DNA of 64,000 nucleotides from NCBI GenBank assembly GCA_015231615.1, contig JADGBE010000006.1, positions 1 to 64,000 on the forward strand, in the 5' to 3' direction. This DNA comes from Desulfamplus sp. (GTDB lineage Bacteria > Desulfobacterota > Desulfobacteria > Desulfobacterales > Desulfobacteraceae). The notes below the pieces were generated by a model. That model saw only the letters and a program-made list of their open reading frames with translations. It ran no database searches and was not told where the DNA came from. The translations under genes and the position numbers were made by a program. Positions 23,407-26,400 of the stretch are shown here, piece by piece; position 1 is the stretch's first letter; the number at the start of each line of letters is the position of its first letter.

Positions 23407-26400
23407 ATGAACAAAAAAATGCAAACAATTGACGGTAATACAGCAGCAACACACGTAGCTTATGCCATGAGCGATGTTGCAGCTATCTATCCAATAACCC
23501 CATCAAGCCCACTTGGTGAAATTGCCGACAGCTGGGCAGCGGCTGGAAGAAAAAACATATTTGGTCAAATTTTGACCGTAAAACAGATGCAGTCTGAAGC
23601 TGGTGCTGCTGGTGCTGTTCATGGTTCTCTTTCTGCTGGAGCTTTAACAACATCTTTTACAGCTTCACAAGGACTTCTTCTTAAAATACCTAATATGTAT
23701 AAGATTTCTGGTGAGCTTCTGCCTTGTGTAATTCACGTTACAGCAAGGGCAATTTCAGCACACGCACTCTCAATATTTGGAGATCACCAAGATGTAATGG
23801 CTGCCCGTCAGACAGGATTTGCAATGCTTGCCTCAAGCTCTGTTCAAGAGGCAATGGATCTTGCGTTAGTTGCCCATCTCTCAACACTTGAGGCAAGAGT
23901 TCCGTTCATGCACTTTTACGATGGATTTAGAACTTCGCACGAAATTCAAAAAATTGAAGTTATTGATTATGAAGATATGGCTTCTCTTATGAACTGGGAG
24001 GCTTACAAGTCATTCAAAGCCCGTGCAATGAATCCCGAATCACCAAATACAAGAGGAACTGCCCAGAACCCTGACATCTATTTTCAAGGCAGAGAGGCGG
24101 CAAATCTCTATTACCAAAAAGTTCCAGCAATTGTTAAAAACTATATGGATAAGGTTGGAGCATTGACAGGCAGATACTACAATCTCTTTGATTACTATGG
24201 AGACCCTGAAGCAGACAGAGTGATAATTGCAATGGGTTCAGGGTGCGAAGCTATTGAAGAGACAGTTACAAAGCTCAACAATGACGGTGAAAGGGTGGGA
24301 GTTGTAAAGGTGCGTCTTTACAGACCATTTGACGCTTCAGCCATGATGTCGGTAATTCCCGCAACAGCAGAGATTATTACTGTGCTTGATAGAACAAAAG
24401 AGCCGGGTGCAATTGGTGATCCGCTCTACCTTGATGTCTGCACAGCATTTATGGAAAAAGGTGAAGGTCCAAAAATTGTTGGCGGACGTTACGGGCTTGG
24501 CTCAAAAGAGTTTAATCCACCAATGATTAAAGCAGTCTTTGACAACATGAGATCAGCAGGACCTAAAAACCACTTTACAGTTGGAATTAAAGATGATCTA
24601 ACAAACTCATCTCTTGAGCCAAAATTTGGCTTTAACCCAGAACCTAAAGGGACAGTTGGGGCAAAATTCTGGGGTCTTGGCTCTGATGGAACTGTTGGAG
24701 CAAATCAGAGTGCCATAAAAATTATTGGTGATAACACTGAAAAATATGCTCAAGGCTATTTTGCTTATGATTCTAAAAAATCTGGCGGTATTACAATTTC
24801 ACATTTAAGATTTGGAGATGTTCCAATAAAGTCAACCTATTTGATTAATGAGCCTGATTTTGTTGCATGCCACAAATCAAATTATGTTCAAATTTATGAT
24901 GTGCTTGAAGGGATAAAAGAGGGTGGAACATTTTTGCTAAACTCTGAGTGGTCCCTTGAGGATATGGAAAAAAATATTCCGGGTGATGTCAGAAAGACCA
25001 TTTATGATAAAAAACTTAAATTTTTCAATGTTGATGCCGTAAAGATTGCTGGAGAAGTTGGACTTGGTAATCGTATCAACATGATAATGCAGACCTGCTT
25101 TTTTAAACTTGCAAATGTTTTGCCGTTTGAAGAGGCAATTGAGCTTTTGAAAAAAGATATAAAAAAGACTTATGGCAAAAAGGGTGATAAAATTGTTCAG
25201 ATGAACATTGATGCTGTTGACAAAACGCTTGCTAATTTGGTTGAAGTTAAAGTTCCAGAGAGTTGGAAAAATGCTTCTGGATGGACAGGTGATGCAGATA
25301 AAGCAACCAATTTTGTTGATAATGTGATGCGTCCAATTCTTGCTCAAAAGGGTGATTTTCTGCCTGTTAGCTCTTTTCAGCCAGATGGATTTTTTCCAAA
25401 CTCAACAAGCCAATATGAAAAACGAGGAGTTGCAATCAATGTTCCAGAGTGGATCCCAGAGAACTGTATTCAGTGTAATCAATGCTCTTTTGTCTGTCCG
25501 CACGCTGCAATTATCCCAATTGTTGCAACACAAGATGAGCTTAAGGGTGCTCCAGAGACATTTATAACTCAAGAGGGTAAAGGCAAAGAGCTAAAAGATT
25601 ACAGATTTAGGATTCAGGTAAATGCTCTTGATTGTCAAGGGTGCGGCAACTGTGCTGATATTTGTCCTGCCAAAGTTCCCGCTCTTGTTATGAAGCCTCT
25701 TGCAAGTCAGACTGAGGCTCAAGTTCCAAATCACAAGTTCTCACTGAACATATCATTTAAAGAGGGTCTGGTTAAAAAAGATACTGTAAAGGGAAGTCAA
25801 TTTGTTAAACCGTTGTTGGAGTTCTCTGGTGCATGTTCAGGTTGTGGTGAAACTCCTTATGTTAAGGTTCTAACCCAACTTTTTGGAGATAGAATGACAG
25901 TTGCCAATGCTACTGGTTGCTCTTCAATTTGGGGAGGTTCTGCCCCATCAACTCCATACTGCACAAATGCTGCAGGACACGGTCCAGCTTGGGCAAGCTC
26001 TCTGTTTGAAGATGCTGCAGAGTATGGTTATGGCATGATGCTCGCTTTCAACAAGAGACGTCAGGCACTTGCATCAAAGATAAAAAAGATTCTTGAGGTT
26101 GAGGGGTGCGGCTGCGGACATGATAATTGCAAAGGCTCAATGTCATCAGAGCTTAAAGATGCACTTAATGGCTGGCTTGCTGGCATGAACAGTGCTGAGG
26201 CATCAAAAGAGTATGGCGAAAAGATCAAACACCTTATTAGAACTGAGCATGGCAAAGGGTGCTGTTCAACATCTTCATCACATACCCACTCATCATGCTG
26301 CTGTTCAGATACACATACTCACGCTTCAAGCTCATGCTGCACAGACACTCATACTCACGCCTCAAGCTCATGTTGCCAATCTTCTGATTGCCAACTTTGT

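Follow-up and report, generated by a model that had tools for sequence, protein, structure and literature searches.

The nifJ locus and its product

The window analysed here, a stretch of 64,000 nucleotides from Desulfamplus sp. (contig JADGBE010000006.1), carries at 23407..27081 on the forward strand a nifJ-type gene for a pyruvate:ferredoxin oxidoreductase (PFOR) of 1224 aa, identified by TIGR02176 and Pfam domains. The match to this NCBIfam equivalog reaches 1917.9 bits (cutoff 911.35) and is split into two stretches because of an insert in the protein. Pfam recognizes POR_N, POR, EKR, PFOR_II, Fer4 families and TPP_enzyme_C, the Fer4-type matches in the region 679-757 being the ferredoxin-type cluster motifs of domain V. 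PFOR is described as containing three [4Fe-4S] clusters, TPP, Mg and Ca (PMC8945911). The closest named records are Desulfamplus MAGs (nHLHbin7, 96% identity; nDH2bin3, 94%). Cysteines 810, 813, 838 and 1126 are invariant in 57/57 rows of an alignment consisting of the window sequence and 56 loci (67 of 80 contig loci had passed, and 56 of those were used). From the D. africanus enzyme, we take these residues to be the proximal-cluster ligands of domain VI. The same alignment reveals a conserved loop downstream of the insert (26452..26481, forward strand, starting at residue 1016), presumably the TPP/Mg loop. Because the cluster cysteines and this loop are intact, the product is, by its sequence, a working-type PFOR to which an appendage has been added, and pyruvate oxidation is its predicted reaction.

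A XisH/XisI pair (27272-28011, forward strand; Pfam PF08814, PF08869) lies directly 3' of nifJ and is followed by a thiolase gene. Repeats also occur in two other open reading frames of the window. The first (18915-20027, forward strand, 370 aa) has Lys/Glu/Ala-rich 7-residue units near its C-terminus, with a DNA array of 21-bp period at 19763-19918. The second (46434-48431, reverse strand, 665 aa), which by eye resembles a lytic transglycosylase with LysM repeats, contains a 36-bp-period repeat at 48155-48236 near its N-terminus.

Architecture of the inserts

Two insertions, both encoded on the forward strand, interrupt the C-terminal part of the enzyme. Insert A (26104..26139) comprises 12 residues (900-911) at the junction of insertion-domain helices 1 and 2 and includes the motif CGCGHDNC at residues 901-908 (26107-26130), exactly where an earlier note on this DNA had placed it. 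Insert B (26257..26388), delimited by alignment, comprises about 44 residues (951-994) at the junction of helices 3 and 4, or about 44-50 by comparison with the D. africanus enzyme. It is built of three CC...HxH units, each consisting of CC or CCC, 3-5 other residues and HxH. Comparison of the units places unit 1 (12 residues) at 26260..26295, unit 2 (13 residues) at 26296..26334 and unit 3 (12 residues) at 26335..26370, the last two being covered by a 36-bp tandem array. A Cys tail of 10 residues (26371..26400), defined by sequence comparison, then runs into helix 4; its DCxLCEI end is also found in the short, His-free inserts of two other species of the genus, G003 and G008.

The Cys/His cluster spans residues 952-998 (26260-26400) and holds 11 Cys and 6 His. 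These counts are those of the earlier note, whose starting residue, 951, is one too early. Its description of the DNA as a tandem repeat is confirmed by Tandem Repeats Finder, which reports an array at 26299-26376 with a period of 36, 2.2 copies and 85% matches. Its placement of the insert between proximal-cluster ligands is also correct in sequence, insert B lying after the third of the four invariant cysteines and before the last.

The density of Cys and His in insert B is far beyond chance: 17 in 48 residues vs 1.3 expected. Of the 32 ORFs in the window with 150 aa or more, no other exceeds 7 in a stretch of that length. A Pfam search over insert B at E 0.001 gives no match, short low-complexity queries being poorly served by such searches, and Pfam places no Fer4-type match in either insert. 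A PDB sequence search with insert B returns one weak match (7on8_A, 19 residues, E 0.0007), taken as low-complexity. Within the genome itself (89.76% complete), no copy of the repeat is convincing as a source; apart from the insert, the search matched only one frame of 57 aa, interrupted by two stops (E 0.58).

An assembly artefact was considered as the origin of the array and is very unlikely, because seven other genomes of the genus, from different species, carry related inserts.

Predicted structure

The C-terminal TPP domain has a normal PFOR fold in the AlphaFold2 model (residues 800-1224, 57 sequences; mean pLDDT 80.5, pTM 0.83). The model superposes on the D. africanus enzyme (7plm_A) with a Z of 36.0 and an rmsd of 2.3 over 355 aligned residues, and on that of Moorella (6cin_B) with a Z of 34.7 and an rmsd of 2.5 over 369. 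Insert A links helices 870-898 and 914-926, and insert B follows helix 930-948. The Pfam PFOR insertion domain PF22338 matches residues 915-947 at 20.7 bits, below its cutoff of 27. Judging from the helix lengths, loops A and B probably lie at a common end of the helical hairpin. Insert B is disordered in the model, most of it falling in blocks of pLDDT 38-50; given this disorder and the varied spacing of the units, no rigid site is predicted.

Distribution and origin in Desulfamplus

The genus was sampled with 10 genomes (G000-G009), one per species. A Cys-rich insert occurs in 8/10 and HxH units in 6 of these 8. Three arrangements are found among the insert-bearing species: insert A together with three HxH units (G000, G009, G007, G005 and G004); three 14-residue CC...HSH units without insert A (G006); and insert A with a short Cys-rich insert that has no His repeats (G003 and G008). 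Insert A is thus present in 7/10 genomes, the copy of G005 being two residues shorter with one Cys fewer. G001 and G002 have neither insert. The PFOR of D. magnetovallimortis (L043) also lacks both, and the G001 sequence is the same in that region. In G002 (L113), the open frame runs upstream of the likely PFOR start and includes tandem copies of a peptide of about 21 residues (FIIDPGTPEDQTGCCNDRI.HK), probably an upstream repeat outside the enzyme.

Outside the genus, the insert was searched for at three levels. In the family (86 genomes, 77 matched), the eight insert-bearing sequences score 134.8-290.8 bits against an insert profile and all others at most 81.4; as the profile was built from genus sequences, their high scores arise by construction, and what carries information is the distance to all other scores. 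None of the 32 family members read outside the genus has the insert, and at most one Cys occurs in the region. In the order, a search of 389 genomes drawn from a larger group detects no insert beyond the genus, its six matches coming from the genome analysed here, four congeners and a 29-aa frame that holds a stop and is taken as chance. In the phylum, a short-insert query against 395 genomes drawn from a larger group matched 109, the own genome best; of the 108 others, 29 loci were fetched and 27 were readable, none with an insert. In the genomes searched, the insert is therefore clade-restricted.

With the inserts removed from the sequences, the eight PFOR genes that bear them form one group in the tree, with a support of 99, which makes a single origin within the genus the simplest reading. 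G006 joins G003 and G008 with a bootstrap of only 87, so that a single gain of the His repeats followed by loss and two separate gains fit the tree alike.

The sulfate-reducing genus Desulfamplus has magnetosome-forming members, D. magnetovallimortis being magnetotactic. A simple link between insert and magnetosomes was considered and rejected, because this species lacks the insert. The insert-bearing nHLH_bin7 (L031) is reported to have putative magnetosome genes of the Fe3S4 type or of both types (PMC7602337).

Cys-rich loops at the same site in other PFORs

Among the 71 readable contig loci (9 of the 80 were not readable in the motif analysis), at least three loop Cys are found only in two Desulfamplus sequences and in L085, L092 (both Christensenellaceae), L094 (Eubacteriales) and L096 (Oscillospiraceae). 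In L085 and its relatives, the helix 3/4 loop of PFOR likewise holds a Cys-rich motif, though one of another kind (e.g., CKGCGCECDE or GCNCEAC). In a wider search on this side, 61 genomes gave 57 with a match, of which 30 sequences were read (L155, L156, L160-L187); at least three loop-B Cys occur in 25/30, which is not an unbiased frequency as the genomes were picked because their PFORs had Cys. Cysteines are often present on the loop-A side too. In a model of L092, the Cys-rich loop falls within blocks of pLDDT 88-89. A search for the Desulfamplus repeat itself in 299 genomes around the Christensenellaceae genome returned only two weak matches, both in frames with stops.

A further PFOR, that of Bacillota bacterium Bu52 (L098), has a long Gly/Ala-rich low-complexity insert at loop A with no evident function; the site in the insertion domain is thus permissive. 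Two unlike Cys-rich motifs in one loop, that of Desulfamplus and that of the Christensenellaceae-side PFORs, suggest repeated acquisition at a single permissive site.

Conservation and selection on insert B

The main null is a near-neutral expansion, in which replication slippage at a permissive surface loop would have produced a Ser/Cys/His-rich low-complexity tract that is tolerated without any particular function. The tandem DNA array, the disorder of insert B in the model, the unrelated low-complexity insert in the neighbouring loop of L098 and the lack of His repeats in G003 and G008, whether through loss or because they never arose there, are all compatible with such an origin. The pattern of conservation argues against it. 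Each of the six repeat-bearing species has three HxH groups, and CC precedes HxH by at most 9 residues in 17/18 groups, the exception being unit 3 of G009 with a single upstream Cys. In the five closest species, 10/11 Cys and 5/7 His columns are invariant, i.e., 15/18 for both residues, vs 13/29 for the others. The difference between Cys/His and spacer columns gives a Fisher p of 0.014 when three gapped spacer columns count as variable, or 0.030 or 0.034 when gapped columns are dropped or gaps ignored; since the five species share ancestry, the test is descriptive. In G006, the spacers differ (CCSGSSHSHSSGSS three times) but CC and HxH are kept.

Substitutions within the insert point the same way. 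At least 7 changes separate the three units of G006, and every one of them is synonymous (P 2e-4 to 4e-4 under neutrality, ts/tv weights 1-10); in two independent species pairs nonsynonymous changes fall below the neutral expectation (P 8e-6 to 8e-4, same weights), the neutral test using Nei-Gojobori counts and treating changes as independent, which tandem arrays may violate. Among the five species, dN/dS of the insert is 0.15-0.38, above the 0.045-0.075 of the core as near-neutral expansion would have it; between G003 and G008 it is 0.08. Because substitutions are biased to synonymous sites, the amino acids, beyond the DNA repeat alone, appear to be maintained, less strictly than those of the enzyme core. 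A near-neutral expansion is rather unlikely. The earlier note had offered a simple expanding low-complexity loop as one option, which is less supported given the three HxH units in every repeat-bearing species and the synonymous bias, selection being weaker than on the core. It had also proposed a check on homologues, with random loss of Cys as the adverse outcome: the closest four relatives carry the insert, and Cys and His are preferentially kept.

The inserts of G007 (L003) and G005 (L004) are near-identical (dS 0.07 vs 0.35 for the core), and codon differences between the two genes are low from about alignment column 900 onward. Local recombination may explain this near-identity.

A putative metal-binding appendage

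We favour, with moderate confidence, the reading of insert B as a selected, flexible metal- or thiol-binding appendage, most likely for a soft or borderline transition metal, metal binding and stoichiometry being putative and deduced from the sequence. Metal coordination is the best explanation for CC paired with HxH and kept across different spacers. Recurrent and conserved Cys and His at a possible ligand spacing, a feature of metal-binding modules, are present in insert B, and the earlier note's term, metal-binding-like, suits a sequence with CC before 17 of its 18 HxH groups and preferentially invariant Cys/His columns. The dN/dS of the insert, several times that of the core, speaks against metal binding, and the lack of His repeats in G003 and G008 indicates that these repeats are not required for the enzyme.

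The appendage would be a probably surface-exposed Cys/His segment on a small helical insertion domain. The CC and HxH of each unit could serve as ligands for one Cys2His2-like site, giving up to three sites, with Zn2+, Ni2+, Cu+ or Fe2+ as candidate metals. If loops A and B lie as close together as we infer, Cys from the CGCGxDxC loop and from the CC/DCxLC tail may together form a further all-Cys site that pins the ends of both loops. Bound metal would keep the loop folded. A role in metal buffering is conceivable, as is that of a sacrificial thiol or metal guard near the Fe-S chain.

The main functional rival is a thiol redox switch, in which oxidative or sulfide stress would drive the Cys pairs into disulfides or persulfides and so alter stability or access, the pairs standing in for domain VII of the D. 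africanus enzyme. That domain has a role in oxygen protection. The many vicinal and near Cys pairs of the inserts, and the absence of domain VII from the Desulfamplus PFOR, would suit such a switch. The conserved HxH groups are unneeded for thiol chemistry and point instead to metal. Furthermore, the open frames of insert-free relatives are also about 1175-1185 residues long and the Moorella PFOR has 1171 residues, so that PFORs with neither the insert nor domain VII are common. A thiol switch is, on balance, rather improbable.

Least probable is an extra Fe-S cluster that takes Cys ligands from loops A and B and extends the electron chain: at least four Cys from two loops, probably at the same end of the hairpin to judge from helix lengths, and the Cys-rich motif in the equivalent loop of Christensenellaceae-side PFORs could favour it, but G006 has no loop A and that of G005 is one Cys short, the inserts give no Fer4-type match, and vicinal CC and HxH are, to our knowledge, not usual [4Fe-4S] ligand sets.

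PFOR holds a central place in anaerobes and is sensitive to oxygen; a conserved Cys/His appendage would add a metal- or thiol-binding element to it. If metal is bound, the genus would offer a natural case of a metabolic enzyme gaining and remodelling a metal site, because full repeats, short Cys-only inserts and insert-free enzymes coexist in it. With Cys in the same loop of Christensenellaceae-side PFORs, the idea can be tested comparatively. The PFOR family itself is well known; in searches of the open-access literature, no title or beginning of an abstract describes a Cys/His insert in it.

Comparison with known systems

The Desulfamplus PFOR has its domain order, cluster cysteines, TPP loop and fold in common with the PFORs of D. 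africanus (1B0P, 7PLM) and Moorella thermoacetica (6CIN). Inserts A and B, both located in the C-terminal TPP domain, are insertions relative to the D. africanus enzyme, which aligns without them. The Moorella enzyme (1171 residues) lacks insert B, since its chain is matched only to query residue 947 before a second stretch begins. The solved PFOR structures thus bear out, by alignment, the earlier note's view that the insert has no counterpart in canonical PFORs. Conversely, the Desulfamplus enzyme has no counterpart of the disulfide-containing domain VII at the C-terminus of the D. africanus enzyme: query residue 1222 of 1224 already aligns to residue 1167 of the 1232 in the D. africanus chain. 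Domain VII is given as residues 1171-1232 with a Cys1195-Cys1212 disulfide (PMC8945911).

Like the Desulfamplus enzyme, Christensenellaceae-side PFORs have extra Cys in the helix 3/4 loop and often in loop A. In contrast to it, their motifs are short (C-x2-C-x-C-x-C or C-x-C-x2-C) and contain no His repeats. As there is no obvious sequence relation between these motifs and the Desulfamplus insert, the two were probably acquired independently. A broader and tentative proposal is that an extra metal site arose on the PFOR insertion domain independently at least twice: Desulfamplus would have acquired one through the CxCGxDxC of loop A and the tandem CC...HxH units, and Christensenellaceae and relatives another through CxxCxCxC or CxCxxC in the same loop. 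The insertion domain might then offer lineage-specific metal centres a docking point from which they tune or protect an oxygen-sensitive enzyme.

Cys/His-rich metal-binding tails are also present in SlyD and HypB. The Desulfamplus insert resembles these tails in being a Cys/His-dense, low-complexity segment on an otherwise normal protein, and differs from them in its internal position, as a loop within a large Fe-S/TPP enzyme, and in its regular CC...HxH tandem unit.
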